A stretch of 64,000 nucleotides of DNA from Ruminococcus sp. (GTDB lineage: Bacteria; Bacillota; Clostridia; Lachnospirales; Lachnospiraceae): NCBI GenBank assembly GCA_023663085.1, contig JAMPIB010000005.1, positions 1 to 64,000 of the forward strand, read 5' to 3'. Each line of letters opens with the position of its first letter. Positions within the stretch are counted from its first letter, which is position 1. Shown here in pieces: positions 110-19,090 of the stretch. A program made the position numbers and the translations under genes. The notes under the pieces were generated by a model that worked only from the letters and a program-made list of their open reading frames with translations, was not told the DNA's origin and did not search any database.

Positions 110-202
110 ATGCAGCTGGAAACAAACTACTGTGATTTGGATTTAGCAAAAAAAGCGGATATTTTGTATCAATTAATACAAAATATCAATAAACAGATAT
201 GA
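110..202 (+). pseudogene. 30-codon ORF, probable tail of a lost gene
   Basis: An ATG at 110 opens 30 codons that end in a TGA overlapping the ATG of the next ORF (ATGA at 199-202). An AGGAG lies at 91-95, rather far from the ATG. A stop at 101-103 closes the frame just upstream. The stop-start overlap is what one expects from the end of a coupled gene, so this may be the last piece of a deleted gene. I do not recognise the family. The rest of 1-198 is AT-rich and holds nothing else I can support. Confidence 0.3.
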
Positions 203-642
203 GGCATAAAATGGATTCTAAGTGGAGTAATATAAAGCTGATCATAAGTGATTTCGACGGAGTTATGACGGATAATCGCGTCTTGATTGATGAAGTCGGA
301 AAGGAGTCCGTTTTTGTAAGCAACGCTGATGGACAGGCCATTCACATTTTATGCTCTATGGAAATAGATTTGGCTATTATATCCACAAAAACAAACAGCG
401 TTGTCAGAAAACGGGCCGAGAAACTGAAAGTTGAATACATCCAGAGTGTTTCTGACAAAGCAGCTTGTCTAAAGAACTATTCTATTGAAAAAAATTCTGT
501 TACAAATATTGCCTACATAGGAAATGATGTTAATGATTATGAAGCAATGATAAGTGGTCAAGGATATTGCAGATTACATGACTATGACAAATGGCAGATA
601 TAGGTTATACGGGAGATTACGGAGATAATCCGTTCCTCCTAG
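199..642 (+). pseudogene. KdsC-like HAD phosphatase, broken near the C-terminus
   Basis: The reading frame shows the KdsC/NeuA-tail type of HAD phosphatase: the nucleophile motif DFDGVMTDN near residues 18-26, the threonine motif IISTK near 59-63, and the loop IGNDVNDYEAM near residue 107. The frame meets TAG at 601-603. Reading on in the same frame gives VIREITEII and a second TAG at 640-642, which closely resembles the normal KdsC C-terminus (G-VIRE-x-x-E). About ten residues that family members have before this tail are missing. I read this as a gene damaged by a small deletion plus a stop. Enzymes of this family remove the phosphate from Kdo-8-P or nonulosonate-9-P. It converges on the ABC transporter gene; the two stop codons overlap. 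Confidence 0.7.
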
Positions 643-2471
643 AAATGTTCCCCTAACACCTCCTCTTTATTTCTAATTTTAACGGCTTTATCTACAACCT
701 CATAAATTACATCACAATTTTTGATAGTAGTCAATCTATGCGCTACAATAACAAGCGTTACCTGTCCCTGCAAAGCATCGATTGCTGACATAACCGCCGC
801 TTCTGTCTCATTATCAAGCGCTGATGTAGCTTCATCCAACACCATAATTTCAGGTCTGTGATACAATGCTCTTGCAATCGCAATCCTTTGTCTCTGTCCG
901 CCTGAAAGCCGTATTCCCCTATCGCCTACCGTAGTATTGATTCCATTCGGAAGTGTATCAATAAATTCCAAAAGTTCAGCTCGTTCCAATGCATCTCTTA
1001 CTAACTCTTCGTCTATCTCATCTATTTCTTCACCAAAAGCTATATTCTCTTTAATACTACCTGAAGTTAGAAATACTGTTTGCGGCACATATCCTACCAA
1101 ACTTGCCCACTCGTCCGGAATTTTTGTAATATCAGTACCATCAATTAATATTGTTCCTTCTTGTGGTACAAGTAAACCAAGCATAATATCTGCAAGTGTG
1201 GATTTGCCGACGCCGGATGAACCTATCAAAGCCACCGACTGCCCTTTTTTTACCTCTAGATTCATATGCTCCAATATGTTATCAGTATTATCATTATAGC
1301 GAAATGTGATATTATTGAGCGTTAACGATGTTTCAAAAGAAAGTCGGTTATTATATGAGACAGAATTCTTTTCCTTTTTTTTTGTTTTTGCAATTATTCC
1401 AGATGATGCAGACTGTACAAAAATCTGTTCCGGATGATGCATGGCATATTGATTAGTTTCAACCAGATTGTTATACACGGAATCAACTCCTGGTATACTT
1501 CCCAAAACCTGATTTAAAGATGCAGAAATCCTACCCAGTGACGGAAGAATACGAAATGCACCTATAGCGAATGCGGCAAGTACAGCAATAAAATCTGCCG
1601 ATCTGTCACCTCCAATAACTCTTACAGCTACCATTGCCAGCAACCCTGATACACATAGTCCTTCTATAATATATGCCGGTGCTTCTGCCCCTATAATTTG
1701 TTTACTCTGTGCCAACTGCATCTGTATCTGATTATTTTCATAGCTTTCTACAAAATGCCTTTGCTTGCGTAAAATCAATACATCCTTTATTCCTTCAAAT
1801 GCCTCATACGATGCCTGTGCGGCATTAGCAGCAAAAGTACTGTATTTTATGCCTGCTTTATACATATTTTTCCGAAACACACAATAAATCAATAGTAAGC
1901 ACATCCCTGACATAAAGGCAAGCATAAGCGATAATTCCCAATCCGCAAAAAACATAAATATACATATTAATATAATTGTTATAAAATCAGATAAGAAGCG
2001 AAAACCGGCATACAAAACCTGATATACCTGAACTGTATCATTAGAAATTCCTCTGTTTAATTCACCATAATTCTTTTGTAAAAAAAATTGATATCCTCTA
2101 CTCATATATGATTCCATCATATGTATAGATACCTCTCTTTGGATTTTGCAGGCAAATTTAATACGAATCCATGATAAAAAAATAAAAAAGGCGTTTTTAA
2201 AAAGATATACGCCTATAACACCGCCAATAGTAAGAATAATCAATTCATTATACTCTAAACATACTATTAAAGAAAACTTTTGGGCAATACTGCTGTTTAA
2301 AAGCTGCTCAGGATCTAAGATCATATTCACTACCGGAATAATGACCGATACGCCAAGACACTCAAAACCCGAACCTAAACAGGTCAATACAAAAACAATA
2401 ACACATAATAATTTTTGAGGACGATTCAGAATATATAACATCTTTTTCCATATATTTACCAATTTACGCAC
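639..2471 (-). CDS. ABC transporter, MsbA/PglK-type flippase (permease + ATPase)
   Basis: A 610-residue half-transporter. The N-terminal half has hydrophobic helices starting near residue 20 and again near 80, 160, 180 and 260-300. The C-terminal ATPase has Walker A GSSGVGKST near 416, signature LSGGQRQR near 520 and Walker B IMVLDEATSALD near 535. Family members of this fold move lipid-linked oligosaccharides or lipid A across the inner membrane, so a role in exporting a lipid-linked glycan is inferred from context. Its ATG directly follows the stop of the cyclase-like gene, with no gap. It is the last gene of the minus-strand run and is a clear paralogue of 38784-40541, with the same order of motifs and similar N-terminal sequence, but a more AT-rich codon use. 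Confidence 0.93.
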   Translation of the reverse strand: MRKLVNIWKKMLYILNRPQKLLCVIVFVLTCLGSGFECLGVSVIIPVVNMILDPEQLLNSSIAQKFSLIVCLEYNELIILTIGGVIGVYLFKNAFFIFLSWIRIKFACKIQREVSIHMMESYMSRGYQFFLQKNYGELNRGISNDTVQVYQVLYAGFRFLSDFITIILICIFMFFADWELSLMLAFMSGMCLLLIYCVFRKNMYKAGIKYSTFAANAAQASYEAFEGIKDVLILRKQRHFVESYENNQIQMQLAQSKQIIGAEAPAYIIEGLCVSGLLAMVAVRVIGGDRSADFIAVLAAFAIGAFRILPSLGRISASLNQVLGSIPGVDSVYNNLVETNQYAMHHPEQIFVQSASSGIIAKTKKKEKNSVSYNNRLSFETSLTLNNITFRYNDNTDNILEHMNLEVKKGQSVALIGSSGVGKSTLADIMLGLLVPQEGTILIDGTDITKIPDEWASLVGYVPQTVFLTSGSIKENIAFGEEIDEIDEELVRDALERAELLEFIDTLPNGINTTVGDRGIRLSGGQRQRIAIARALYHRPEIMVLDEATSALDNETEAAVMSAIDALQGQVTLVIVAHRLTTIKNCDVIYEVVDKAVKIRNKEEVLGEHF

Positions 2472-3110
2472 TTAAATATCCCCCTCGGACAAAACAATCC
2501 TTACTGGTGCACCATCTGCTCCAACAATATTAATCGGAAAACAAAACATCTGATAAGTTCCTTCTCTTACTTTTGTTAAATCTAAAGCCTCTGCAATCAG
2601 TATCTCGTGAGATAATAAAATACCGTGTACACTTTCTCCTGTAATACGCTTTTCCTTTGGCCGTTCAATCGTCATATAGTCTATACATACCATTTTAATC
2701 TTCTTTTCTACCAAATATTCTGCCGCCGCATAATCCAACGTAATATAATCTGTCAATATGATATCTTCATGAAAAATATTTGAATTATCTGTTTTTAATA
2801 TAATAATATCGTTTTTTTCTATATCATATTTCATTAATATATCGCATGTTATTTCATTATATCCCTGCAAATCAAGCACTTTTGCAATTCCGGTCATTGC
2901 CTCCAGCGAAAGCTGATCTATCGTTTTACCATCAGTGATAAAATGGCTCGGAGCATCTATATGAGTTCCTGTATGTGTCCCCAGTACAATTGATGAGACA
3001 TTGGCACTATCACCTTTTTCCAAGTCTTGCACTCTCTCAAATACAAACTGAGGGTTATTGGGATAAATAGCCATATCGGCTGTATATGGATAACTAACAT
3101 CTATCAACAT
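2472..3110 (-). CDS. Cyclase-family metal-dependent hydrolase (kynurenine formamidase-like)
   Basis: A 212-residue protein with the family signature HTGTHIDAPSH near residues 46-56, whose His and Asp residues bind the metal in kynurenine formamidase and related cyclase proteins. Usual family length is 200-260, so it looks complete. Known members cleave N-formyl or similar amide and ester bonds on small molecules. The substrate here is unknown; context suggests an intermediate of the neighbouring sugar or acid pathway. It overlaps the upstream epimerase gene by 17 bases and abuts the ABC transporter, which implies translational coupling. An enzyme of this class is not a usual part of capsule loci. 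Confidence 0.85.
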   Translation of the reverse strand: MLIDVSYPYTADMAIYPNNPQFVFERVQDLEKGDSANVSSIVLGTHTGTHIDAPSHFITDGKTIDQLSLEAMTGIAKVLDLQGYNEITCDILMKYDIEKNDIIILKTDNSNIFHEDIILTDYITLDYAAAEYLVEKKIKMVCIDYMTIERPKEKRITGESVHGILLSHEILIAEALDLTKVREGTYQMFCFPINIVGADGAPVRIVLSEGDI

Positions 3111-3969
3111 TTTCTTCTATCTCCCGTATACATTCTATTATACCTTGTCCTAAATCATGATAACAATCACTTACCACCTTATAATTCGTATGCGGTTTAT
3201 ATGTATAAGGTGTGACGTTATAATGCAGTTCTGACTTCTCTGCATCATAAATTACTTCCAGCTTCTTATCCAGGATTTCCCCAAGAAGCACCATAATCTG
3301 TTTTCTAGTATACCTTTCTTGTCCTGTCAATTGCAAGTGCTGATTGATATACTTATTGTTCAATATATCAACACTTAATTTGGCTGCATCCGCTACATGA
3401 ATATATTCTCTCATGTCTTCCTCTGTTCCAAAACAATGAATTATATTTCCTGACAGCGCCTTCTCTATCATCTTTTTCATTCCATTATTTTTGTCAGCTC
3501 TCGGACCATATAAAGAACCATAACGCAACACCGTATATTCTAAATTAAATCTTCTCTCATATTCTTCTATATAAATTTCTGCAGACTGTTTACTGCATCG
3601 ATAAAAACCGCCCTTTTCACTATTTGCATAAAAAGAACTGGCATATATAAAGCGTTTTATATTATGCTCAACACAGGCATCCATAATATTACAAGTACCT
3701 ACTACATTTAGTAAAACTGTATCCACCGGCTTGGTTGATGCATCATCCAAATCTGCAATTCCCGCATAATTATAAACATAATCACAGCCAGCAATCGCAG
3801 CATTAACTTGCCCTCTGTCTAAAATATCTCCGATTATCATTGTTTGGCCATCTTGCAAATATCCAGATCTTATTTTATCAAAGACAATAACTTCATATCC
3901 CCGACTCAATAATTCATCCGCAACATAACTTCCAAGGAAACCGGATCCACCAAATACTACTGCTTTCAT
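3094..3969 (-). CDS. NAD-dependent sugar epimerase/dehydratase (extended SDR)
   Basis: A 291-residue extended SDR. The Rossmann motif GGSGFLGSYVADELL begins at residue 8 (GxxGxxG), and the catalytic YxxxK is seen as YRCSK near residue 123. A C-terminal substrate domain follows (TYKPHTNYKVVSD). The family acts on nucleotide sugars as 4-epimerase, dehydratase or reductase; the exact reaction cannot be read from the sequence. Its ATG at 3969 directly abuts the stop of the HAD gene at 3970, and its end overlaps the cyclase gene, so the three are probably co-translated. Somewhat short compared with GalE (about 330). Confidence 0.88.
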   Translation of the reverse strand: MKAVVFGGSGFLGSYVADELLSRGYEVIVFDKIRSGYLQDGQTMIIGDILDRGQVNAAIAGCDYVYNYAGIADLDDASTKPVDTVLLNVVGTCNIMDACVEHNIKRFIYASSFYANSEKGGFYRCSKQSAEIYIEEYERRFNLEYTVLRYGSLYGPRADKNNGMKKMIEKALSGNIIHCFGTEEDMREYIHVADAAKLSVDILNNKYINQHLQLTGQERYTRKQIMVLLGEILDKKLEVIYDAEKSELHYNVTPYTYKPHTNYKVVSDCYHDLGQGIIECIREIEENVDRC

Positions 3970-4611
3970 TTACATTCCCTCTAATATTCCTTCCATCTGC
4001 AGTAAATCGTCTACTTTATATGGAATATCTTTAAAAACATCTATATTATCTTCTGTTTTTCGTCCAATAAACATAAGCCCTGTATTATAAGCCGCATTTT
4101 TATCCGTTGATGCATCACCTACAAATACCATTTCTTCTTTTAAGTATCCATATTCACGACAAATTGTTTCAACAATTTCTTCTTTCTTCATTGGCGTACC
4201 ATAGATTCGCTTAAAATACTGCGATAGTTTCCTGCCCTCCACAACTTGTCTAAGTTCCTCTTCAGGAGTTCCAGATGCTATATACATATCATATTTCAAA
4301 TAATTTCTCTCTAAAAACTCTTTTGCACCTGTCACAAATGGACAGTCCATAACACGTGAAAATACAATATCAGAAAACCTGTCCGCAAGTTTCTGTTCTA
4401 TTTCCTCAGAATATGGCAGTTTCAATATCTCCTCTATAAAATATCTAAATTTCACATGTCTTGAAATTCCCATATGCGTCATATGATATGTCACAAAGGC
4501 ATCTGCCTGCTGTCTCGGATAATCTTTGACTACATCCGCAAACGCCTCTGTCTTAATCTTAGCAGATTCCAAAATAACACCATCAAAATCAAATACTATC
4601 GCCTTAATCAT
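3970..4611 (-). CDS. HAD-superfamily phosphatase, beta-phosphoglucomutase/PGP-like
   Basis: A 213-residue HAD enzyme with motif I DFDGVILES at residues 8-16, a helical cap, motif II SGTP near 117, Lys in the PMKKEE segment and motif IV VGDASTD near 163. This subgroup removes phosphate from small sugar phosphates or glycolate/glycerate phosphates, or isomerises sugar phosphates. It overlaps the 2-hydroxyacid dehydrogenase gene by 8 bases, so the two are probably used together, for example oxidation of a phosphorylated hydroxy acid followed by dephosphorylation. The substrate is not known. Confidence 0.85.
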   Translation of the reverse strand: MIKAIVFDFDGVILESAKIKTEAFADVVKDYPRQQADAFVTYHMTHMGISRHVKFRYFIEEILKLPYSEEIEQKLADRFSDIVFSRVMDCPFVTGAKEFLERNYLKYDMYIASGTPEEELRQVVEGRKLSQYFKRIYGTPMKKEEIVETICREYGYLKEEMVFVGDASTDKNAAYNTGLMFIGRKTEDNIDVFKDIPYKVDDLLQMEGILEGM

Positions 4612-5515
4612 AATCTATCCCTAAACCTTTAAATAAGTTCTGCACAGCCTCCATCTCCATAACTACACGGCCTTCCTTTGCACTGGAAGAAATATGAGGT
4701 GTCAGAACAATATTATCCAACTCACATAGCCTACCCTGATAAGGTTCTTCACTATACACATCGAGCGCGGCACCCTGTATTTGTTTATTCTTTAGTGCAT
4801 CATATAACGCCTCTTCATCGATAAATTTCCCTCTGGAGGTATTGATAAGAAATGCACCCTTTTTCATTCTCGGAATATCTTCCGCCCCAATAATATAGGT
4901 ACCTTCGTCGCAGCTTGAAGCATGTATGGATACAATATCGGCCCATGCAAGAAGTTCTTCTTTTTTCATATATGCATATTCATTTTTCATGTCACACACA
5001 TCAGTATATGCTATCTCAACCCCAAATGCACTTAAAAGTTCAGCTACTTTATGCCCTATTCTTCCACACCCAATAATGCCAACACGCTTTCCACTCAGCA
5101 TAAAACCTGTCATTTTGTTCCAAGTTCCAGCCTTTAACTCATTACTCATATTAGATACATTTTTAAGCACATCTAACATGATTGTTACTGTCAGTTCTGC
5201 TACAGAATTCACCGGTGCATTAGGCGTATTATACAATTTTATATTCAACTCCTGACATGCATCTTGATCCACATTATCCATTCCAACACCGCATCTTGAA
5301 ATCACTTTAATATTGGGACGTACTTCTAACGCTTCTCTTGTTATGTTTTCAACACCTGCTATTACCGCATCAACATCGGCAGTCAGCTCAATAAATTCCT
5401 CTGTTGTAAGTTTTCTTCCATAAGGATTTAATATAACCTCACATTTGTTCCGACATACTCGCAAAGGTTCACTATCTGCCTTGCCAAAAGAACTGGTTGA
5501 AATTAATACTTTCAT
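4604..5515 (-). CDS. D-2-hydroxyacid dehydrogenase, phosphoglycerate dehydrogenase family
   Basis: A 303-residue protein with the SerA/2-hydroxyacid dehydrogenase layout: N-terminal substrate lobe, NAD motif GIIGCGRIGHKVAELL near residues 146-161, catalytic Arg in SRCGVGMDNVD, Glu in the EEPYQG region, and His in TPHISSSA near the end. It lacks the C-terminal ACT domain of SerA, so it is unlikely to be the housekeeping serine enzyme. It probably reduces or oxidises a 2-keto/2-hydroxy acid that feeds the neighbouring pathway. It has a good upstream RBS (GGAGAAG) and overlaps the downstream HAD phosphatase gene. Confidence 0.88.
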   Translation of the reverse strand: MKVLISTSSFGKADSEPLRVCRNKCEVILNPYGRKLTTEEFIELTADVDAVIAGVENITREALEVRPNIKVISRCGVGMDNVDQDACQELNIKLYNTPNAPVNSVAELTVTIMLDVLKNVSNMSNELKAGTWNKMTGFMLSGKRVGIIGCGRIGHKVAELLSAFGVEIAYTDVCDMKNEYAYMKKEELLAWADIVSIHASSCDEGTYIIGAEDIPRMKKGAFLINTSRGKFIDEEALYDALKNKQIQGAALDVYSEEPYQGRLCELDNIVLTPHISSSAKEGRVVMEMEAVQNLFKGLGIDYD

Positions 5516-5539
5516 AAATCTTCTCCTGATATGTTATTT

Positions 5540-6387
5540 TTACTTTCTAATAATTTTCCATGCATCAAATCTATGTTCCAAATTATCATACTTTTCCATA
5601 TCCATATCGGCCATAATGTCACGGTCATTCTTATAATAAGCCCAGAATAAATCATTTTTATAATACATTTTATAAGTATCTTCTATATGTATTACTTCAG
5701 TAACATTCTCAGACAAATATTCCCCTACACTGTCACCAAATGTCTTTTCGCTAATATTATCTTCCGGCTCTTCACATGGTAATAATCCTATCTTTCGCCG
5801 CAGCATATTGGCATATGCCATATTCACATATTTGGAACGATAATTTGAATCGTCAATAATGATAACGGAGCCACTTCTCATAAGTGATAACACCTGCTTT
5901 GTTTCCGCGAGCAAATTATCTATTGTATGTTCACTGTCTAAAAAACAAGCTGATACACCATTTTCCGCAATTTCCTGTATTTCATTTAACACCGTTATTC
6001 CCGCATACTCTGATGTACTTATTGTGGCAACAGGACACCACATTTCCCATATACTCTTTTCCTGAAATATTCTTAAAATAGTATCCTGAATTACAGTCCT
6101 CAAAAAAAACAATTTACTTCCATTTGTATCCCACGTATATAATTTCCCATGGTTTTTCATGGCAAACCAAAACAATACAATAGTACTTGCGCCAGACCCA
6201 GTCTCAACATATATAGCCCCATTACCCCCCCCATATTAAAAAGAACATCATAAATAGCTAAAAATTCGGAATCCGGAATTGAATTACACCATCTCGGTAA
6301 CATACGCTTAACAGATAATAAAAATTTTTTTTCTTCCTCAGTATTCTTTATGATTGTTTCTTTATCTCCTAAAATGAAATCATACAT
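5540..6387 (-). pseudogene. Class I SAM methyltransferase split by a frameshift at a G8 tract
   Basis: Two overlapping frames make one protein of about 282 residues. The first frame (from ATG at 6387) reads to a run of eight G on the minus strand (6225-6232), after which it loses meaning. The second frame from there reads GNGAIYVETGSGASTIV, the SAM-binding glycine motif, then FLDSEHTID and VIIIDDSNYRS, and ends at 5540. In the second frame a TAA at 6236-6238 closes the path upstream, so a shift at the tract is required: one more G, or a -1 slip, restores MGGGNGAIYVETGSG. The cause may be a true mutation, slippage used as an on/off switch, or a sequence error. It lies 16 bases below the SDR gene. 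Confidence 0.8.
6225..6232. repeat. G8 homopolymer at the methyltransferase frameshift
   Basis: Eight C on the plus strand, eight G in the coding strand of the methyltransferase. Nine G, or six, would join the two parts of the gene in frame. Confidence 0.9.
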
Positions 6388-6403
6388 TTTATATTCTCCT
6401 TAT

Positions 6404-7135
6404 CTAAATAAAATCTCCACCATCTAAAGTAATAATCTGACCCGTCAAAAAGGCTGCCTCCTCCGACAAAAGATATCTTGTCAAGCCGGCAAACTCCTCC
6501 TTTGTACCGGCTCTTTTTAAGGGTACATATAAAGCTCTTTCCTCTAACTCTTTAGAAGTTCTTTTCATTCTATCCGTATGAAATTTAGTATCCATATATC
6601 CGGGGGCAATAGCATTTACCAATATTTTATATTTTGCCATGTTCTTTGCCAACCCTTTTGTTGCACATTCTAATGCCGCTTTTGCCATTCCATATCCCAT
6701 GGAAAAACTTCCTCCACCATGCTGCGCTGAAGCTGTTGAAACAAAAACAATTCTCCCGCCATTTGAAGTCATATATGGAAACGCATATTTTGCTAAAAGA
6801 AATGGAAATATAGTATTCAATGAATAGTCTGTTTCCATATCCTTATAGGATAACTCAGACCAATGGCAATTTCTATTTATATCTCCCATTAGCACTAACA
6901 GATTGTCAATACCAGCCGCCCATTCCACATAATCATGAATTAAATTTTTGCAATCTTCTTCATTCATAATCACCTGTTGAAACAATTTAACATGATTCCT
7001 GAATTCATATTCTTCTAACACTTTCTTATTATGTGCCCAGTGCAACCCCAATAAGTGCATGTCATGAACCAGAATCGGAATCAATTCTGATGCCAGATCA
7101 CTGCTTGCACCGATAACCAATGTTTTTTTCACCAT
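6404..7135 (-). CDS. SDR-family oxidoreductase (FabG-like)
   Basis: A 243-residue classical SDR. The cofactor motif VIGASSDLASEL starts at residue 7, the catalytic Ser is in VFVSTASAQ near 132, the YxxxK is YGMAK near 149-153, and the typical VNAIAPGYMDT follows at about 175. The C-terminus LTGQIITLDGGDFI is the standard FabG-like end. It should oxidise or reduce a hydroxyl or keto group with NAD(P)H. SDRs of this type take part in several CMP-nonulosonate and related glycan pathways, but the substrate here cannot be named. Separated from the upstream TIM-barrel gene by 24 bases. Confidence 0.92.
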   Translation of the reverse strand: MVKKTLVIGASSDLASELIPILVHDMHLLGLHWAHNKKVLEEYEFRNHVKLFQQVIMNEEDCKNLIHDYVEWAAGIDNLLVLMGDINRNCHWSELSYKDMETDYSLNTIFPFLLAKYAFPYMTSNGGRIVFVSTASAQHGGGSFSMGYGMAKAALECATKGLAKNMAKYKILVNAIAPGYMDTKFHTDRMKRTSKELEERALYVPLKRAGTKEEFAGLTRYLLSEEAAFLTGQIITLDGGDFI

Positions 7136-7159
7136 TTTCTTATCCTTTATAAGTCCATT

Positions 7160-7960
7160 TCAATAATATAACTCCACATACTCCATACTCTGTTCAATAC
7201 AATCTCTGTACTTATCAGTCATCCTCATCTCAATGCTGACATATCCAGAATAATCAATTTTCTGCAACATTTCTCCAATCTTTTTATGATAGTCAGCAGC
7301 AATACCTATTTGCTGCAAATTTGGATCGTTTATATGAAAATGTCGAATATACTCTTTACAATCCAGAATAATTTTCTCAATCTTTGTATTCTCCGCTGTA
7401 ATTGCTTTTGCGTCCAAATGAAGTCCAAATCCTTCACTATTTACTTTTCTGACTAACTCTAATCCCTCGCTATGCGTATTTATAAAATTAGTTTCCTTCT
7501 TTGTTAAAGGTTCTATAAGAATCTTAATTTTATTCTTCAATGCATATTCTGCCACTTCCTGTATAACCGCTACCGCAATATCCATTGCCTGACCATATTC
7601 ATATTTCCTCCTATCTCGCACCAAAGGTGAACCCAAAATCATCACTTTGCTATCCAGATCAACGGCCAAATCGACCAATTCTTTCATATAATCTTGGAAT
7701 GCTTGTTGCTCCAACTTTGTTCCAAATAATTTAGGTTCTTGAATCCCCCAAAAAAGAGAATGTAGGGAACATATCTTTAAATCATATCCCAATATTTTTT
7801 CTTTATATTTTCTTCTCTCCTGAGAGGATATTCTACGGAAATCTTCCCAAATTCTACTCGGTGCCACTTCTATTGCATCCCAATGTCGCTGCCGTAATTT
7901 TTTCAGCACCCATTGTTCATCCTCCTGCGGCCACGCTATATTTGAAATTGACTTAAGCAT
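7160..7960 (-). CDS. Sugar-phosphate isomerase/epimerase (xylose isomerase-like TIM barrel)
   Basis: A 266-residue protein of the AP-endonuclease-2/IolE/hydroxypyruvate isomerase fold. Visible family marks are WDAIEVAPSR near residue 28, ICSLHSLFWG near 68, ILIEPL near 149 (metal-ligand Glu), FGLHLDAKAI near 177 (Asp), HFHINDPN near 207 (His) and YVSIEMRM at the end (Glu). These residues form the divalent-metal site in the family. Members isomerise or epimerise sugars, inosose or hydroxy-keto acids. In this place it may supply the carbon skeleton for the CTP-activated product made by the NeuA-like neighbour. Confidence 0.85.
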   Translation of the reverse strand: MLKSISNIAWPQEDEQWVLKKLRQRHWDAIEVAPSRIWEDFRRISSQERRKYKEKILGYDLKICSLHSLFWGIQEPKLFGTKLEQQAFQDYMKELVDLAVDLDSKVMILGSPLVRDRRKYEYGQAMDIAVAVIQEVAEYALKNKIKILIEPLTKKETNFINTHSEGLELVRKVNSEGFGLHLDAKAITAENTKIEKIILDCKEYIRHFHINDPNLQQIGIAADYHKKIGEMLQKIDYSGYVSIEMRMTDKYRDCIEQSMEYVELYY

Positions 7961-8004
7961 ATCGCCATATTCCTTATCTACCTTTTAAAATCTTTTACAT
8001 AGTC

Positions 8005-8985
8005 CTATGATTTCTTTATCTGCGCTGTACGCCATGGGCAGCCGTTACAATCTTCTATTTCATGGCTTTTTCCTTCCATATGCAGCTTGCGTGTCTGCAT
8101 CAATTTCTCGTCGTGCCAACAGTCATATATGGAACGTTCATTGACATTTCCAAGACACAACCCTCGCATATCATCATTGTTACAGCCAAAAATTGTCCCA
8201 TCCCACTCAATCGTCATTCTCTGCCAAAGCTGCGGACATGCCCAATCACCACGAAGTTCCGTGTTTCGGCACGATTCATCTTTAAAATCAATGGCTGCGA
8301 CTTCGTCAGCATACTCTTTCCATGTATTGACATACTTATCCAGATCAAGCTCCGGCAATTTCACAGTTTGAATTCTGATTTTCGGATAAGTCACATGATA
8401 TTCTTCTTTCAGTCTCCGCAATGTTTGTATATTAGCTAAAACCGTGTCTAATTTTGCCCCGACTCTGACCGCTTCATACTCTTCTGTATTCGTTCCATCT
8501 ATCGATATCGATATTCTATCAAGATGTGCCTGAATCAGTTTTCGGCTGACGTCCTCTGTCAACAACATCCCATTTGTATTGAAATAGATATCAAGCACAC
8601 CTCGTTCTTTTGCATATTTTACCATTCTGGGAACATCTTTATTGATCAGTGGCTCACCCCTGTAACTCAGCTTTAACCCCCACAACCGTTCATCCGGGTC
8701 TTCAGAAAATTGATCCATAACTTTCTTGAATGTGTCAAACGAAAGATTTCCAAGCTGATTCTTTTGCAGAAGCGGTAATTTATCGCAAAAAGTACAACGC
8801 AGATTGCATAGACTGGATGCCTCTATGTCCAAATGCAATGGTAACTCCCTAAGATAAAACTGTTTTGGATACTGCATCCAGGCTTCTCTATATTTTAAAT
8901 ATTCTTCAGATGCATTCTCCGGCTGATTATTTCCTGCTAAAGATTCAAAATTTGAATTTGGTTTAATCGTTATCTTTGCCATCAT
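8005..8985 (-). CDS. Radical SAM enzyme with SPASM domain
   Basis: A 326-residue protein. The radical SAM cluster motif CxxxCxxC is present as CNLRCTFC (Cys60, Cys64, Cys67). A C-terminal SPASM region has Cys at CRNTELRGDWAC, IFGC, GLC and DCNGCPW, matching ligands for auxiliary Fe-S clusters. ATG ATG at the start follows AGGAGAAT; the second ATG (8982) has the better spacing. SPASM enzymes do peptide maturation, sugar dehydration or dehydrogenation. No precursor peptide is visible nearby, so a sugar or small-acid substrate is more likely. It sits 6 bases below the cytidylyltransferase gene, so the two are tightly linked. Confidence 0.93.
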   Translation of the reverse strand: MMAKITIKPNSNFESLAGNNQPENASEEYLKYREAWMQYPKQFYLRELPLHLDIEASSLCNLRCTFCDKLPLLQKNQLGNLSFDTFKKVMDQFSEDPDERLWGLKLSYRGEPLINKDVPRMVKYAKERGVLDIYFNTNGMLLTEDVSRKLIQAHLDRISISIDGTNTEEYEAVRVGAKLDTVLANIQTLRRLKEEYHVTYPKIRIQTVKLPELDLDKYVNTWKEYADEVAAIDFKDESCRNTELRGDWACPQLWQRMTIEWDGTIFGCNNDDMRGLCLGNVNERSIYDCWHDEKLMQTRKLHMEGKSHEIEDCNGCPWRTAQIKKS

Positions 8986-8991
8986 ATTCTC

Positions 8992-9744
8992 CTATTTTGC
9001 ATATGGCAGGCTGTCCTCTGTAAAACCATGCATCTTTAACCAGGTTTCTGCTAAAGGCATCTGCCATTCATAGTCAACATCAACACCGCCCCATTGCTTG
9101 ATCGGATAAATCTTTTGTCCCATCCACCGCTGTGGTAGGATTCCATAATTTAAATCATCTAAACATCTGGGTCTGACCACCGATAAACAAACATCTGCAA
9201 AATACGTATCTCCCTGATCATCTCTATCACAACTTATTTTCATATCTTCCGGATAACACTCAAATGGAATAAAGGGATGTAATAATCCATCTTCTCCTAT
9301 TTTTCTGGCCCGTACTGTAGAATACATATTATATTTTGATACAGTGACCGCAGAATCAAGATCTGGATGGTCTCTCAAAACCTTAATTCCTTCATCAATC
9401 TGTTCCGGCAATACACACGGCGCGTTACAATGTAATAATACCATAAATTCAATATCTTTTCCTAATTCATTCTGAATATATTTATATCCATGCACAAAAG
9501 CATCTTCACCATGTGCTTCTTTAGTACATAAATAATCCGGACGTTTAATAATATTTACACCATGTTTCTCCCCTATATCCATAATATCCGGTGAGTCAGT
9601 TGATATATATACTTCATCTACTTCTGAAGCATGTATTGCCGCTAACAATGGATACTCCATAAAGGCCCGTCCCATAACGGGATAAGTGTTTTTCCCCGGG
9701 AATCCTACGCTTCCCTGTCTTCCAATCAATAATGCTGCTACCAT
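8992..9744 (-). CDS. Acylneuraminate cytidylyltransferase-like (NeuA/PF02348 family)
   Basis: A protein of about 250 residues with the nucleotide-binding start LLIGRQGSVGFPGKN, a variant of the NeuA motif ARGGSKGIPRKN, followed by EVYISTDSPDI near residue 46 and the acidic YFADVCLS region. The family moves CMP from CTP onto the anomeric OH of sialic, legionaminic, pseudaminic or Kdo-type acids. I prefer the ATG at 9744 over the one at 9750, because AAGGAG lies seven bases before it. No NeuB-type synthase is in the window, and the glycine-rich loop differs from true sialate enzymes, so the acceptor may be a different acid. Confidence 0.85.
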   Translation of the reverse strand: MVAALLIGRQGSVGFPGKNTYPVMGRAFMEYPLLAAIHASEVDEVYISTDSPDIMDIGEKHGVNIIKRPDYLCTKEAHGEDAFVHGYKYIQNELGKDIEFMVLLHCNAPCVLPEQIDEGIKVLRDHPDLDSAVTVSKYNMYSTVRARKIGEDGLLHPFIPFECYPEDMKISCDRDDQGDTYFADVCLSVVRPRCLDDLNYGILPQRWMGQKIYPIKQWGGVDVDYEWQMPLAETWLKMHGFTEDSLPYAK

Positions 9745-9761
9745 AATCATTCTCCTTCCTC

Positions 9762-10586
9762 TTATACTTTTTCACATATGATTCCTTCATACATTATCTC
9801 TGCATCTTTATAATTGCTAAAGTAAAAACCCAACAACGTAGCTGGACTGCACTCTTCAAGCTTTCCTGATTTCGTCTTTGCAACCCAAAACTCTCTATTA
9901 ATCTGAAATAAATCTTTCAATAGTCTTTCGTGTTCTTTCAAAGAACGGATATATCCCCAAAAAACAACCTCCCTCTTATCTTTTTTTAATTCATGTGAGA
10001 AATTTATAATATTTTCATGCAGAAAATTTCTCCATTGTGCCGCAGTATCAATCATAATGAATTTCCCATGTGGTTTTAGTATTCTTAAAATATTAGCAAC
10101 TTGTCTTTTATAATCTCTATCATCTAAAGCATACATTACAAAATTAGAGAATACAATATCGTATGTATCAGCAGGTAATTCATCTAACGTACTGGTTACC
10201 CATGTTTTAGGCAATATCCCCCCCCTATTCAAATAATCATAGGATTCTTTCTGACATTCCTGCAATTCAATATCATATCCACCTCTAATAAATGGTTCTT
10301 CTACAATTCCAATTCCGCATCCTACCGATAGTAATTTAGGTTTTTCTATTTTCATATTGAGAGTAAGTCTATCGACCACCTCTTTCAACCAATTAGAATA
10401 TTCCCTTTTCTCATTAAGCCAGCTTTCCTGAAAACGATAGTGATTTTCCTTCAACTTTTCATAAAACATAGCATAAAAATCCGCACTGGCAATTTCTTCA
10501 ATTTTCATTCCTTTTTTCTGCGCTATCTGAGTCAGCGAAATATCCTGCCAAACATTCTGCCATAATTTGTATCTTAATTTTGGCAT
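9762..10586 (-). CDS. Class I SAM-dependent methyltransferase
   Basis: A 274-residue methyltransferase. The SAM motif I is LLSVGCGIGIVEEPFI near residues 87-102, with a later acidic residue in IELQEC and the post-I motif DIVFSNFVMYAL near 146. The family adds methyl groups to sugars or small molecules. It contains an eight-G tract in frame (10218-10225), encoding RGGIL, which is intact here but prone to slippage. It lies 7 bases below the unassigned gene 10594-11781 and 17 bases above the cytidylyltransferase gene. Confidence 0.85.
   Translation of the reverse strand: MPKLRYKLWQNVWQDISLTQIAQKKGMKIEEIASADFYAMFYEKLKENHYRFQESWLNEKREYSNWLKEVVDRLTLNMKIEKPKLLSVGCGIGIVEEPFIRGGYDIELQECQKESYDYLNRGGILPKTWVTSTLDELPADTYDIVFSNFVMYALDDRDYKRQVANILRILKPHGKFIMIDTAAQWRNFLHENIINFSHELKKDKREVVFWGYIRSLKEHERLLKDLFQINREFWVAKTKSGKLEECSPATLLGFYFSNYKDAEIMYEGIICEKV
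10218..10225. repeat. G8 homopolymer inside an intact methyltransferase gene
   Basis: Eight C on the plus strand, in frame (codons AGG GGG GGG ATA). A one-base slip would cut the protein after about 120 of 274 residues. Confidence 0.9.
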
Positions 10587-10593
10587 AACATAT

Positions 10594-11781
10594 TCAACCT
10601 CCCTTTTCTGTTATTTCCTTTATTTTATCTTCTACTATTTCAATGAACAATTTATCAGGGGTTCCAGGACGCTTAATATATTCACTTATATACTGCTGTG
10701 CTGTTTTCTCTTCTATTTTATGAATATATTCCCACGGCATCTGAGCCATTTCCTCTACGTCCATATTACATGGTGTAATACCAAAATATTGGTAACTTGG
10801 CAAAACCCAACTATTCCACATATTATACTCTTTAAAATCATCATCAATAAGTACTAATATTTTCTTCTTATACAAAAGTACAAAGGATACTGCAGTTGAC
10901 CACTGCATGATGACAAACTTACATCTTGCAACAAGTTCCTGTGTTTTGTTATAAATGATTTTCCTTTTATACAATACATCTTCCGCATACTTTGTATGAG
11001 GATGTCCTGCAACTACTATTGGCAAATGATAATGCTCTTCTATCCTATCCAATACCGCTTCTATCTTATTTGCAACCTTTGCCCCTTTACCATACCACGG
11101 GTCTTTATATTGACCTAATGCACTATCTTGGTCTAAGCTGCCAAAACCACCATCTATATACACAATGCATTCTTCCAATACATTTTGAGAATGTTCTCTT
11201 GATTCCAGATATCTATCATAATCAAAAGCATGTATATATATCTTTTTATCATCGGGTATAAAATTTAACCACATATCTTCTATAGGTACACCCAAAAAAG
11301 CATATTGCGGCAAATGCCTCTGAAAACATTTCACGGCCAACTCAACGTCAATCTCACGCCAACAGCATCTTGCTAAAAGATTCTTTAACACCACAATGTA
11401 ATGTATAATAGTATTATTTTTGTCTATGATATTATTTGTCTCACTTACCTGCAATATTTTTCCGGTACCAGCTAATATAAAATAACTACAGTTATATCGC
11501 GCCATAGCATATATATATCTTGTTTTCTTATATTCAGGAAAAATGTAAATTGCATTCCGATTTTTTTTTACATTTTTCATAAATTCCCCGAATGAAAACT
11601 TATATATATTTTTGCCTTGATATAAACCTGCACTAATATCTAAATTTACTTTTTTAGTATAGCCATCATTTACTAACCATATTTCAACAAAATATCCCTT
11701 ATCTGCCAAATAATCCGCACCATACCGGTGATAATCTCTTAACGTAAACATATAATTATATATAAAGATGACTTTCTGCAT
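10594..11781 (-). CDS. Unassigned, GT-B-like / polysialyltransferase-like protein
   Basis: A 395-residue soluble protein I cannot place firmly. The N-terminus (KVIFIYNYMFTLRDYHRYG) and the C-terminal half, with IVVAGHPHTKYAEDV near 285 followed by CKFVIMQWSTAVSFVLLYKK near 320, recall GT-B transferases of the polysialyltransferase or CDP-glycerol-transferase kind, where an HP-like motif and a Ser-Thr pair bind the nucleotide sugar. A role as glycosyltransferase is therefore an inference. It is strongly AT-rich (many ATA codons). If the cytidylyltransferase makes a CMP- or CDP-linked donor, this is a candidate user of it. Confidence 0.55.
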   Translation of the reverse strand: MQKVIFIYNYMFTLRDYHRYGADYLADKGYFVEIWLVNDGYTKKVNLDISAGLYQGKNIYKFSFGEFMKNVKKNRNAIYIFPEYKKTRYIYAMARYNCSYFILAGTGKILQVSETNNIIDKNNTIIHYIVVLKNLLARCCWREIDVELAVKCFQRHLPQYAFLGVPIEDMWLNFIPDDKKIYIHAFDYDRYLESREHSQNVLEECIVYIDGGFGSLDQDSALGQYKDPWYGKGAKVANKIEAVLDRIEEHYHLPIVVAGHPHTKYAEDVLYKRKIIYNKTQELVARCKFVIMQWSTAVSFVLLYKKKILVLIDDDFKEYNMWNSWVLPSYQYFGITPCNMDVEEMAQMPWEYIHKIEEKTAQQYISEYIKRPGTPDKLFIEIVEDKIKEITEKGG

Positions 11782-11814
11782 ATTCTTTACTCCCTATCCT
11801 TAGTAACCACCTAT

Positions 11815-13512
11815 TTAATCTTCTAACAAAACCCTAACTGTCTCTTTATCTGCCTTTGTTAAATATCGATGATCTGACAAATCTAATGCTTCACATGACT
11901 TTTCTACAAAAATTTCAATAGCTCTCATAATATCTTCCGTATCATGTGCCACAATATATCTTTTTCCTTCCCATTCAGATGGTAAATATGTCAGCACAAT
12001 CTCCGAAGATAACGATATGATTATAACGTTTTTCCCCGACAAGACAGTTTCATATGTTGTTGTTGATGCGCATGTCAAAACAACATCCACCATTTGTACT
12101 ATACTATCAAAGTCACCATTTATAAATTCATATTCTATTTCCAACTCATTATAGCCATAATCATTAAGTGTATACGTAGCTTTTGTTGGATGATTTTTTA
12201 ACAAAATCTTTAATTGTCTCTTCTCCAGAAAATCTTTTAATTCGCTTAATACTTTTAATATCCGATAAGCTGTCTCTGGAAAATATGGTAATGCTACTAA
12301 TATCCTTTTCTGTTTTCTCGTCCCATTATTTACTTTTTGTTCATAAATCCTCTGCATTCTAAACGATGGAACAATAATGGTTTTAACTGTATCTGAAAAC
12401 TGCTTCACCACTTTCTCAAAAATCTGAGCCGCAACACCTATTTTTTGTGGAACCACTTTATATTTCTGCTGCATATAGGAAGGTGCAATCTGGAGCCACC
12501 TAGCATCAAGAGGATACGCTGCATATCCGACACTGTTTTTATCAATATAATTCTGTCGAAACGACATAAATAATCCTAATGAACTTGGCTGTCCTTCATA
12601 CCATCCTATTAAACTTTTTATATCTATATTTTTATTTTTGATTCGTTGTATAAAATAATAATTTAAAATCCCATATAATGAATTTTTGGAGTGAAGGCTC
12701 TGCATAATATCAGCATTTACAATCTCTGTAACATCGATCCCTTGAAAGACCTTGGCAGATTTACAATATTTTCTACAATAAAACGGAAATACTGTTGCTT
12801 TAATGTAATCAAAGAGTTTTAAATAATTCTCCCTATAAATAAATTTATATTGTTTGCTTTCTACCATACAACGTATTAATTCTTTAATCGTCATATCACT
12901 ATTCAAAAATAAATATGGTAAAAAAAATATTTTTTCTTCTGTAAAATTTAATATATCAGCAAAGTCTCTTGCCTTATATTCACCTGTGGAAAAGCATGTT
13001 GAAAAAACATCTGTTTCAATTAATATCGATTCCCCAGAGAGAAGTGGCGATTCCCGCTTAGTCTGCTTTCTTACTATATTTCTTAATCTTACCTGTTCTG
13101 TAATATTTATAAAGTTTCTTATAATCCCATTAATAAAGATATATTTATCTATATTATGAGAATGCTCCACTTCAATTTTTATTTTGTAATTTTTTCGCTT
13201 TATATATCTCTTTAAAGTAATTTCTATTTCTTTAGCAGGTACTTTTATTTTTTTAATTTCCTGCCCTTTTTCAATCATCTCAATAGCCAATATAGTTATA
13301 CAGATTTGCTTATACGCTGCTGATAAAAAAATATTTCTACTGGAAAACTGGTTTACCCACCAAAACACTTCCTTTCCCCATACATCGCTTAGTTCATCAA
13401 CAAATTGAGTATACGCTTTACTATATATATCAAATATTTCATTCATACGTTTAGTACTATTCAACGACATATTACATAAATCTAAAACACCAGTTTGCAT
13501 CTCTCCCATCAT
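11815..13512 (-). CDS. Large unassigned protein with a GT-B-like C-terminal half
   Basis: A 565-residue protein. The first 350 residues show no motif that I recognise. The C-terminal part reads KRILVALPYFPETAYRILK near 405, LKILLKNHPTKATY near 440, and VDVVLTCASTTTYETVLSG near 485. This matches the pattern of capsule/CDP-glycerol-type GT-B transferases (KxHP, then S/T-rich loop with a following Glu). A nucleotide-sugar transferase with a long N-terminal extension is likely. Its ATG overlaps the stop of rfbG (ATGATG). It is among the most AT-rich genes of the window, suggesting transfer. Confidence 0.55.
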   Translation of the reverse strand: MMGEMQTGVLDLCNMSLNSTKRMNEIFDIYSKAYTQFVDELSDVWGKEVFWWVNQFSSRNIFLSAAYKQICITILAIEMIEKGQEIKKIKVPAKEIEITLKRYIKRKNYKIKIEVEHSHNIDKYIFINGIIRNFINITEQVRLRNIVRKQTKRESPLLSGESILIETDVFSTCFSTGEYKARDFADILNFTEEKIFFLPYLFLNSDMTIKELIRCMVESKQYKFIYRENYLKLFDYIKATVFPFYCRKYCKSAKVFQGIDVTEIVNADIMQSLHSKNSLYGILNYYFIQRIKNKNIDIKSLIGWYEGQPSSLGLFMSFRQNYIDKNSVGYAAYPLDARWLQIAPSYMQQKYKVVPQKIGVAAQIFEKVVKQFSDTVKTIIVPSFRMQRIYEQKVNNGTRKQKRILVALPYFPETAYRILKVLSELKDFLEKRQLKILLKNHPTKATYTLNDYGYNELEIEYEFINGDFDSIVQMVDVVLTCASTTTYETVLSGKNVIIISLSSEIVLTYLPSEWEGKRYIVAHDTEDIMRAIEIFVEKSCEALDLSDHRYLTKADKETVRVLLED

Positions 13513-14570
13513 CTATCTCCAAAATAATTTTCTATCTGATTATCCATACACTTAATTATATCCCCATTATTCATATATATCCAATCCCATTCCGCCACCT
13601 TTTGAACCGCTGTACTAACATCCCATCTAGGATTCCAGCCGATTACATTTTTTATTTTAGAATTATCCAATTTCAAGCAATTTGCTTCATGTGGTCCACA
13701 CGCCTGAACACATTCCCATTTAGGCATTTCCCCCGAAAGTTTTCGCCATTGTCTGCAAAATTCATCCACAATACATTCAGTATTCCAACAACAGACATCA
13801 TCCGGTCCGACATTATAACACCCCGACTTGGTCACATCTTTATACTGGCTCTCTTCAATCATTATATATGCACTAAGAGCTTCCAGAACATGCTGATAAG
13901 GTCTGATAGATAATGGATTCCGCACAAGAATAGTTCTCCTATCCTGCACTGCCCGAAAGCAATCCGGTATAATCCTATCTCTCGCAAAATCTCCGCCACC
14001 TATCACATTTCCAGCTCTGGCCGTAGAAATACTGATATCCCTATTATAAAAAAAAGAATTAATATAACTTTCTGTCACAAGTTCTGAACAAGATTTGCTA
14101 TTAGAATACGGATCATACCCATTCAATTCCTCATTTTCCCGGTAACTCCAACACCATTCCCTGTTTTTATAGACTTTATCTGTTGTAACATTAACAACAG
14201 ACTTAACAGCTTCACAGCTACGAATGCTCTCCAGTAGATTTACCGTTCCCATAACATTGACATGATAAGTATATACCGGATCCACATAAGACTCCCTTAC
14301 AATCGGTTGTGCCGCCAAATGAAATATGATCTCAGGCTGAATCTCCTGCATGTAAGCACTTAACCCATTTAAATCACGAATGTCTCCTATATAGGATTCC
14401 ATCTCCTGACTCATACCACAAAGATCAAATAAACTAGGTGTTATATTCGGTTCCAATGCATAACCATATATTTTCGCTCCCATATGCATTAATATACGAC
14501 AAAGCCATGTCCCCTTAAATCCTGTGTGCCCTGTTATTAATACTTTTTTATTATAATAACTATTCATCAT
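13509..14570 (-). CDS. rfbG: CDP-glucose 4,6-dehydratase
   Basis: A 353-residue extended SDR that fits RfbG well in length and motifs. The start KKVLITGHTGFKGTWLCRIL carries the NAD site and the FKG variant typical of CDP-glucose dehydratases. Catalytic YxxxK is YSNSK near residue 155, and VNVTTDKVYKN holds the Thr-Asp-Lys set. It converts CDP-glucose to CDP-4-keto-6-deoxyglucose in the cytosol. It follows the aminotransferase gene after 3 bases and belongs with the cytidylyltransferase at 16241-17014. Confidence 0.93.
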   Translation of the reverse strand: MMNSYYNKKVLITGHTGFKGTWLCRILMHMGAKIYGYALEPNITPSLFDLCGMSQEMESYIGDIRDLNGLSAYMQEIQPEIIFHLAAQPIVRESYVDPVYTYHVNVMGTVNLLESIRSCEAVKSVVNVTTDKVYKNREWCWSYRENEELNGYDPYSNSKSCSELVTESYINSFFYNRDISISTARAGNVIGGGDFARDRIIPDCFRAVQDRRTILVRNPLSIRPYQHVLEALSAYIMIEESQYKDVTKSGCYNVGPDDVCCWNTECIVDEFCRQWRKLSGEMPKWECVQACGPHEANCLKLDNSKIKNVIGWNPRWDVSTAVQKVAEWDWIYMNNGDIIKCMDNQIENYFGDR

Positions 14571-14573
14571 ATA

Positions 14574-15692: not shown

Positions 15693-15711
15693 CGTTTTCC
15701 TCCTGTTTTAA

Positions 15712-16236
15712 TTAAGTATCTATTCCGTCAAATAACGGTAATCCTGCATCCTTATCAGAAAGAATAGGAGTCTCAATTCCCCAATCGTATCCAAAGCTAT
15801 TCCATCTGATTCCCACATCATATTTACTAACATTAACCTCCGTTGCCATATACATAACAACAGAATCCTTTAACACCCGATAACCATGCGCAACACCTTT
15901 AGGAATATAGATTGCCTTCGTATCCTCTCCGTCTAATTCAATAGAATAAACACCCCCATAAGTAGGTGAATTCTCACGAAGATCTAAAAGAACATCCAAA
16001 ACCGTACCCACAATTACAGATACCAGTTTCTCGCACGCTGCCGGTTCCACCTGCAGATGCATACCCCTGATAACATCCTTTTTCGATTTCGTGAACCAGG
16101 TCTCTTTAAAGTCTACATTAATGCCAGCCGGCATAAGGGAAACAGAAAAAGGCTTTACCAATTCTCCTCTATTATCAGGAAACCTCATCCCATCTATAAT
16201 ATATACTCCTGATAAATTACATTCTTTTATTGCCAC
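15712..16236 (-). CDS. dTDP-4-dehydrorhamnose 3,5-epimerase-like (RmlC cupin)
   Basis: A 174-residue cupin of RmlC size. Seen are RFPDNRGELVKPFS near 18, the catalytic His in VIRGMHLQ near 56, LDVLLDLRENSPTYG near 82 and IPKGVAHGYRVL near 108. Family members epimerise C3 and/or C5 of 4-keto-6-deoxy sugars. Because it lies inside a CDP-hexose module, the substrate is probably CDP-4-keto-6-deoxyglucose, as for the AscE-type enzymes of Yersinia. No dTDP-sugar genes (RmlA, RmlB, RmlD) are visible. Confidence 0.88.
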   Translation of the reverse strand: MAIKECNLSGVYIIDGMRFPDNRGELVKPFSVSLMPAGINVDFKETWFTKSKKDVIRGMHLQVEPAACEKLVSVIVGTVLDVLLDLRENSPTYGGVYSIELDGEDTKAIYIPKGVAHGYRVLKDSVVMYMATEVNVSKYDVGIRWNSFGYDWGIETPILSDKDAGLPLFDGIDT

Positions 16237-16240
16237 AATA

Positions 16241-18054: not shown

Positions 18055-18089
18055 CTCTATTCTCTCTTTCACTTCTTACAGCTAATGGC

Positions 18090-18118
18090 ATTTTACCATA
18101 TATTTTAAGCAATTACAA
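18090..18118 (-). promoter_or_regulatory. Sigma-A-like promoter ahead of the CDP-hexose block
   Basis: On the minus strand TTGTAA (18113-18118), a 17-base spacer and TAAAAT (18090-18095). Five of six matches in the -10 box and four of six in the -35 box. It lies in one of the few gaps near 100 bases in this run and would start a transcript about 30 bases before the ATG at 18054. Confidence 0.55.
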
Positions 18119-18169
18119 GAAATATGGGGTACAGCCAATAATTTGTTCAGTCACTTTAAATCCATATCT

Positions 18170-19063: not shown

Positions 19064-19090
19064 ATTCTATCCACCATCACCGATACTTTT

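Follow-up and report, generated by a model that had tools for sequence, protein, structure and literature searches.

The window analysed here is a stretch of 64,000 nucleotides from Ruminococcus sp. (Lachnospiraceae; assembly GCA_023663085.1, contig JAMPIB010000005.1, positions 1 to 64,000), and close to its start lies a tightly packed run of minus-strand genes grouped around a NeuA-like cytidylyltransferase, which we call NeuAL. A sequence-only reading of this DNA had proposed a small-molecule pathway without NeuB. The genes named there were all found at their positions and on the minus strand by means of the list of open reading frames and matches to family profiles; the count of nine genes does not fit the same reading's list of ten plus an ABC (ATP-binding cassette) gene. 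Arithmetic on the gene coordinates gives intergenic gaps of 0-44 bases and two overlaps, of 8 and 17 bases, in agreement with the tight, overlapping arrangement described there. In order of transcription, the features of the run are:

11815..13512, minus strand: GT565, putative GT-B glycosyltransferase (no Pfam or NCBIfam match)
10594..11781, minus strand: GT395, putative glycosyltransferase (no Pfam or NCBIfam match; near NeuAL also in loci L032 and L034)
9762..10586, minus strand: MT1, accessory methyltransferase (PF13489)
8992..9750, minus strand: NeuAL, cytidylyltransferase of the NeuA/KdsB fold, separate clade, 252 residues (PF02348)
8005..8985, minus strand: radical SAM (S-adenosylmethionine)/SPASM enzyme with a twitch-type domain (single auxiliary cluster), candidate BtrN-like dehydrogenase (cysteines, BtrN profile match)
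7160..7960, minus strand: TIM (triosephosphate isomerase) barrel, xylose-isomerase-like, accessory, candidate ketose epimerase (PF01261)
6404..7135, minus strand: SDR, classical short-chain dehydrogenase/reductase, ketone-reducing slot (PF13561)
5540..6387, minus strand: MT2, accessory methyltransferase with a broken frame (frame change at a G8 tract)
4604..5515, minus strand: DH2, D-2-hydroxyacid dehydrogenase, phosphoglycerate-dehydrogenase-like (PF02826)
3970..4611, minus strand: HAD (haloacid dehalogenase), HAD-IA phosphatase (PF13419)
3094..3969, minus strand: NAD-dependent extended-SDR epimerase/reductase of the module (PF01370)
2472..3110, minus strand: cyclase/kynurenine-formamidase-like metal hydrolase (PF04199)
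639..2471, minus strand: ABC exporter, end of the run (PF00005 and PF00664)

The reading frame of MT2 is interrupted where eight G follow one another (C on the plus strand, 6225-6232); the tract either is phase-variable or reflects an error in the assembly. Because several glycosyltransferases and genes for cytidine diphosphate (CDP) sugars lie upstream of the run, we regard the region as a surface-polysaccharide locus. As position 1 coincides with the end of the contig (C55), one side of this locus is invisible.

Judged by its sequence, NeuAL represents a new clade within a known cytidylyltransferase family. Its score against PF02348 (47.4 bits, cut-off 22.6) places it in the CTP_transf_3 family, and it stays far under the curated NCBIfam cut-offs of all five models matched (for PseF, 54.3 versus 205.7 bits). 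In a tree of 52 rows, from which three fragments and one near copy had been left out beforehand, a branch with a support of 100 in the Shimodaira-Hasegawa-like approximate likelihood ratio test (SH-aLRT) separates the 32 NeuAL rows from the rest. Tree and cut-offs agree in that NeuAL does not group among the canonical CMP (cytidine monophosphate)-sialate, -legionaminate or -pseudaminate synthetases; the earlier suggestion that it is no ordinary enzyme of the sialate or legionaminate type is supported. Three NeuA-like proteins (L100 at 9567, L011 at 9656, L093 at 8082) branch beside NeuAL and outside its clade; these are possibly sister families with other substrates.

The structural model of NeuAL has a mean predicted local distance difference test (pLDDT) value of 88.3. 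Its top solved folds are the CMP-Neu5Ac, CMP-Pse, CMP-Kdn and CMP-Kdo (3-deoxy-D-manno-octulosonic acid) synthetases, with 6ifd as the best Foldseek match (E-value 2.1e-17). In the CMP-sialate synthetase of Neisseria, Arg165 contacts the sugar carboxylate in a docked complex and its mutant is inactive, and Asp209 and Asp211 bind the metal (PMC2901514). R176 of NeuAL aligns with this arginine and D224/D226 with the aspartate pair; all three residues are invariant in 33 rows. At the positions of Gln166 and Asn175, NeuAL has aspartates. Since the carboxylate and metal residues are kept and these two positions are changed, the substrate may well be an acid with a different sugar part. NeuAL hence resembles the CMP-nonulosonate and CMP-Kdo synthetases (NeuA, PseF, KdsB; PF02348) in its predicted fold, carboxylate arginine and metal-binding aspartates, whereas it differs from them by its own clade, the aspartate substitutions, an insertion of about six residues that the canonical rows lack, and a contig on which no NeuB or KdsA was found.

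A scan of named bacterial genomes yielded relatives 51-93% identical to NeuAL in 18 loci, two of which (L039 and L040) are near copies. Their record titles name Lachnospiraceae, Deltaproteobacteria, Chloroflexi, Gemmatimonadetes, Omnitrophota, Elusimicrobia, Geobacter, Rhodospirillales, KSB1 and an unplaced bacterium. A profile made from 17 of these loci, with matches counted at an E-value of 1e-40 or better and centre genomes included, matched 3 of 297 genomes in the phylum of G606 (Geobacter), 15 of 245 in that of G609 (Omnitrophota) and 6 of 398 in that of G607 (Rhodospirillales), the last including one outlier (1.9e-52) and one fragment. By record title, many of them metagenome assemblies, NeuAL occurs in about eight phylum-level groups of bacteria. 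Close to home it is rare: among 200 sampled genomes of its own family no close relative was found beyond its own genome (best other match 2.6e-17, 26% identity), and a joined three-protein query of 398 genomes of its own phylum found NeuAL only in its own genome (E-value 1e-22; two candidates scored per genome). The viral contigs gave no match in the NeuAL search; the plasmid search matched 30 records, and the 20 listed among them are 24-37% identical.

For assessing which genes accompany NeuAL, partner profiles were built from loci of the named-genome scan plus the window and applied to 17 held-out loci from the phylum scans; a partner was counted if it lay within 10 kb of NeuAL. The outlier L100, which is under the NeuAL threshold, was excluded from the held-out set, and the fragments L095 and L099 were kept in the count. 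The held-out loci contain the module epimerase 13 times, the radical SAM enzyme 13, DH2 9, HAD 8, SDR 7, a HisC-like aminotransferase 6, a B12-binding radical SAM enzyme 6, NeuB 5 and a Gfo/Idh dehydrogenase once; TIM barrel and cyclase were found in none of the 17. The corresponding numbers for the 18 training loci are DH2 15, epimerase 12, HAD 11, radical SAM 10, SDR 8, cyclase 7, Gfo/Idh 6, HisC 5, TIM barrel 2 and NeuB 0 at a threshold of 100 bits (L034 has a NeuB at 66 bits). Taken over all 35 loci, the epimerase occurs in 25, SDR in 15 and the TIM barrel in 2. For comparison, 11 stretches were scored, eight of them surrounding canonical or distant NeuA genes and three others from the genome of the window; none reached the thresholds for radical SAM, DH2, HAD, module epimerase, SDR, TIM barrel or cyclase. 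As the gene set recurs in other bacterial groups and in none of these stretches, its association is beyond chance.

The Lachnospiraceae loci share a tight gene order, NeuAL-radical SAM-SDR/HisC-DH2-HAD-epimerase, and locus L038 carries a second, divergent NeuAL copy fused to DH2 (10690-12525). The genes keep together in other genomes, as the sequence-only reading had required, the core partners recurring in the held-out loci. The conserved set postulated there (NeuA-like, radical SAM, TIM barrel, 2-hydroxyacid dehydrogenase) recurs in all but the TIM barrel, and the cyclase, counted there as a part of the pathway, falls outside the common core; a further one lies farther out in L044 (Geobacter) and a weak one in L084 (109 bits). 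An aimed search of the open-licence PubMed Central literature found no description of such a module. We conclude that the pathway is a real, conserved and previously uncharacterised module.

The radical SAM enzyme has as invariant cysteines in 23 rows only the triad C60, C64, C67 together with C250, C268, C313 and C316. With a profile of nine rows, the best PDB match was BtrN (4m7t, E-value 8.6e-25; the next other protein 8.1e-13), and the four twitch cysteines of BtrN are aligned with the profile, which corresponds to the triad plus one four-cysteine auxiliary cluster. BtrN oxidises an alcohol of 2-deoxy-scyllo-inosamine to a ketone, and its auxiliary cluster is bound by four cysteines (PMC9012708). 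The protein is accordingly a candidate BtrN-like alcohol dehydrogenase; we infer this function, because its NCBIfam matches are to different radical SAM models and stay under the respective cut-offs (111.7 of 380 bits at best). The module shares with the BtrN of butirosin biosynthesis the combination of a radical SAM and a four-cysteine twitch domain and, in some loci, a ketone step beside an aminotransferase. In contrast to BtrN, the enzyme studied here resides in surface-polysaccharide loci, and 14 of 30 loci possess SDR without a HisC-like aminotransferase.

These 30 loci are those used for slot statistics; not counted were two truncated loci (L043, L086), two fragments (L095, L099), two near copies (L033, L040) and L100, the outlier. 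SDR and HisC tend to replace each other: both are present in one locus (L094, with SDR at 92 bits), SDR only in 14, HisC only in 11 and neither in four (Fisher's exact test, p = 4.8e-4). The clearest case is L046, whose NeuAL is 90% identical to that of the window: here HisC occupies the place, flanked by radical SAM and DH2, that SDR has in L032-L034. On the best tree, at least 8 changes are needed for SDR and at least 8 for HisC. HAD accompanies SDR in 13 of 15 SDR loci. A similar alternation exists between radical SAM and Gfo/Idh (both in one locus, radical SAM only in 21, Gfo/Idh only in five, neither in three, which are variant loci; p = 0.002). The Gfo/Idh protein of L039 matches 3q2k (E-value 1.5e-71), which we take to be WlbA, and dehydrogenases of this type likewise perform a ketone-forming step; unlike in those systems, none was found in the run of the window, and in other loci the Gfo/Idh protein seems to be a stand-in for the radical SAM enzyme.

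DH2 has 1wwk as its best PDB match (E-value 1.4e-51); R74, R228, E257 and H274 are invariant in 24 rows, and Arg228, Glu257 and His274 can be read as the catalytic set. HAD has no solved relative at an E-value of 1e-6 or better, but its phosphatase-type site appears intact, with D8, D10, S113, K143, D166 and D170 invariant in 19 rows. The module epimerase retains S111, Y123 and K127 in all 25 rows, and the cyclase matches 8hmo (E-value 2.1e-32). The TIM barrel reaches 98 bits with the IolO model (cut-off 300) and matches 2zvr (TM_0416; E-value 2.2e-13), presumably IolO.

Based on the observed gene content, conservation, predicted fold, catalytic motifs and alternation of slots, we propose, with about even confidence, that the run is a transferable module making an acidic sugar, activated with CMP, for a surface polysaccharide; on the way, one carbon of this sugar would be oxidised to a ketone and then re-reduced or aminated. 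The BtrN-like radical SAM enzyme, replaced elsewhere apparently by the Gfo/Idh dehydrogenase, would oxidise one secondary alcohol to the ketone. In the window, SDR would reduce this ketone, probably inverting the carbon, and the TIM barrel perhaps epimerises a neighbouring one; in sister loci the HisC-like enzyme may aminate the ketone instead. DH2 could oxidise a 2-hydroxy acid that bears a phosphate, and HAD would then remove the phosphate from the resulting 2-keto acid; this is the weakest step of the scheme. From its fold, clade and residues, NeuAL is expected to transfer CMP onto a carboxylated sugar of a new kind, and glycosyltransferases and the ABC exporter would act last. The sequence-only reading, which had arrived at a new CTP (cytidine triphosphate)-activated acid or sugar, is partly supported: the separate clade with its kept carboxylate and metal site and the recurrence of DH2 and HAD are in its favour, and the parts assigned to TIM barrel and cyclase, as well as the rule that NeuB is missing, are not.

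Several observations weigh against this proposal. Within the NeuAL model, confidence is lowest in the loop of residues 173-178, to which R176 belongs (pLDDT below 50). DH2 and HAD are present in only 24 and 19 of the 35 loci, respectively, some of which lie on short contigs, and HAD occurs in 3 of 12 HisC loci versus 15 of 18 loci without HisC (p = 0.002); for these reasons the DH2-HAD scheme in its present form cannot apply to all loci. The alternation of SDR and HisC is not significant over independent pairs on supported branches (four pairs, median p = 0.25; on average 2.7 differ in opposite ways, 0.0 in the same way and 1.3 not at all), and the pattern had been spotted before it was tested, with thresholds set afterwards. 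L097 has a radical SAM gene but lacks both SDR and HisC, and SDR, Gfo/Idh and the epimerases are large families. Strong NeuB matches (E-value 1e-30 or better) occur in 32 of 34 NeuAL genomes, namely in that of the window, in 14 of a first set of 16 others and in all of a second set of 17; the count does not include the outlier G1165 or the genomes to which L033 and L040 belong. In 16 of 23 comparable genomes, NeuB lies within 25 kb of NeuAL on the same contig, at distances of 6-21 kb. The frequency and closeness of NeuB point to a link to nonulosonic acids which the proposed module does not need.

The earlier statement that NeuB is absent therefore holds only locally: on contig C55, visible only from the window start onward, no PEP (phosphoenolpyruvate)-condensing enzyme was found, and the sole NeuB match in the genome of the window (PF03102, E-value 2.5e-85) lies on contig C77, directly after a canonical NeuA. 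Since NeuB is common in NeuAL genomes, the tailoring of a nonulosonic acid is a live rival: NeuB elsewhere would supply the acid, the radical SAM enzyme with SDR (or the aminotransferase) would alter one side-chain carbon, and NeuAL would activate the product. In the sample of the phylum of G609, all 15 NeuAL genomes have NeuB, compared with 118 of 230 others (p = 7.6e-5); note, however, that both kinds of genes belong to polysaccharide loci, which alone could explain the link. Moreover, two NeuAL genomes, G606 and G608 (L046, close kin of the window), show only weak NeuB matches, which coincide with their PF00793 matches, the completeness of both assemblies being uncertain.

Among 17 stretches around NeuB, four (in G980, G1119, G919 and G1020) contain no canonical NeuA by profile or by motif scan, as tailoring would allow. 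In the other 13, a canonical NeuA distinct from NeuAL is present, in two of them as a weak match (36 and 46 bits; some rows had helped to build the canonical profile), so that NeuAL is mostly not needed to activate the NeuB product. A precedent is the pair EpaA (CTP_transf_3 plus aldo-keto reductase) and EpaB (an SDR), which convert pseudaminic to 8-epipseudaminic acid (PMC12053666). As in the module, a CTP_transf_3 domain and an SDR-type oxidoreductase there act on an acidic sugar and are encoded away from the NeuB pathway; in contrast, EpaA is fused to its aldo-keto reductase, and the part of that paper at hand mentions no radical SAM enzyme, 2-hydroxyacid dehydrogenase or HAD. An ortholog of the radical SAM enzyme without NeuAL (326 bits) is found in L103 (G345, 9019-10014); the same island encodes NeuB, a canonical NeuA and, by eye, a flagellin-like protein. 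This, too, fits tailoring. Tailoring leaves DH2 and HAD without an obvious job. All in all, we consider it somewhat doubtful, though to be taken seriously.

In a bolder form of the proposed module, a phosphorylated aldonic acid would be oxidised by DH2 at C2, dephosphorylated by HAD, modified by the radical SAM enzyme and by inversion or amination, and activated by NeuAL, without a NeuB or KdsA step. DH2 and HAD are cast as makers of the acid end because DH2 resembles phosphoglycerate dehydrogenase and the HAD site is intact; such a route would give a 2-keto acid without PEP, although this argument from family chemistry could be wrong. On balance, we think this PEP-independent route to a CMP-ulosonic acid unlikely.

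Some further possibilities were considered and rejected. The sole PF00793 match in the genome of the window, an open frame of 364 residues on contig C80, is probably a DAHP (3-deoxy-D-arabino-heptulosonate 7-phosphate) synthase and not KdsA; the Kdo pathway was rejected, no KdsA being recognised in this genome. A phosphonate pathway was rejected because PepM (PF13714) had no match in the genome of the window (G000) or in G596, G597 and G608, that is, in none of the genomes of L032, L034 and L046; matches exist in 13 of 17 NeuAL genomes searched, 10 of them over the cut-off, and the Lachnospiraceae loci L035 and L036 are among the matching ones. An HpcH-like aldolase was dismissed as a general source of the carbon skeleton, as it occurs in one locus only (L037) and just under the cut-off.

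Quite improbable, in our view, is a compound that is no ulosonic acid at all: a hydroxy, amino or cyclitol acid linked to the glycan by a phosphodiester, as in the type A flagellin glycan of C. difficile. It would suit the recurrence of HisC-like aminotransferases and HADs and the cyclitol amine that is the substrate of BtrN. It would also suit a variant in three loci (L047-L049, titled Omnitrophota or KSB1), in which GAPDH (glyceraldehyde-3-phosphate dehydrogenase)-like and FAA-hydrolase-family genes stand upstream of NeuAL; a divergent DH2 is present in 3/3, the module HAD in 2/3 and radical SAM, which the two genes replace, in 0/3. For C. difficile type A (cd0241-cd0244), CDP-threonine has been proposed, and the source describes, similar to the module, a nucleotidyltransferase, a phosphatase-like protein and a methyltransferase for a surface glycan (PMC10714395). 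However, CD0242 is likened there to phosphocholine cytidylyltransferase and not to NeuA, a comparison made by description only, whereas the NeuAL model has a CMP-ulosonate synthetase fold with the carboxylate arginine.

Two independent pathways side by side, NeuAL with radical SAM and SDR for one residue and DH2, HAD and epimerase for another, would explain why L089, L090 and L091 have NeuAL and radical SAM without DH2 or HAD, and L042, L047, L049 and L098 have NeuAL, DH2 and HAD without radical SAM; given the tight gene order in the Lachnospiraceae and the NeuAL-DH2 fusion of L038, this is very unlikely. Ordinary activation of legionaminate, pseudaminate, sialate or Kdo can practically be set aside: Pfam and NCBIfam put NeuAL in the general family, but its scores far under the NCBIfam cut-offs, its clade and the separate NeuA-NeuB pair on another contig contradict it.

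Some neighbouring features deserve mention. The CDP-sugar set beside the module (13509-17014) comprises genes for a dehydratase, a DegT aminotransferase, an RmlC-like epimerase and a nucleotidyltransferase. The model of GT565 is of low confidence (pLDDT 62.6); its PDB matches are GT-B folds, and it is too weak to name a donor sugar. At the contig start, a KdsC-like HAD fragment (199-603, plus strand), whose C-terminal end looks broken, scores 70 of 180 bits with the NCBIfam KDN-9-phosphatase model and 63 of 107 with the KdsC family, and reads as a remnant of another acidic-sugar gene. The same genome perhaps contains a second small-molecule glycan island (L016, G000:C22, 203-5178), in whose translations flagellin-like, nucleotidyltransferase-like, HAD-like, racemase-like and methyltransferase-like proteins and another radical SAM enzyme are seen by eye. 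In L039 (Gemmatimonadetes), polyketide-synthase-like proteins follow shortly after the module (13532-20738, by eye from translations); there, the acid perhaps decorates a secondary metabolite.

NeuAL is a marker of a conserved module which Ruminococcus sp. shares with very distant bacteria, and the module suggests for a BtrN-type radical SAM enzyme a function in polysaccharide synthesis that can be tested. If either of the leading readings is true, surface glycans would contain a new acidic monosaccharide; should the PEP-independent route be the correct one, it would be an exception to the rule by which the synthesis of CMP-activated keto acids begins with PEP condensation.

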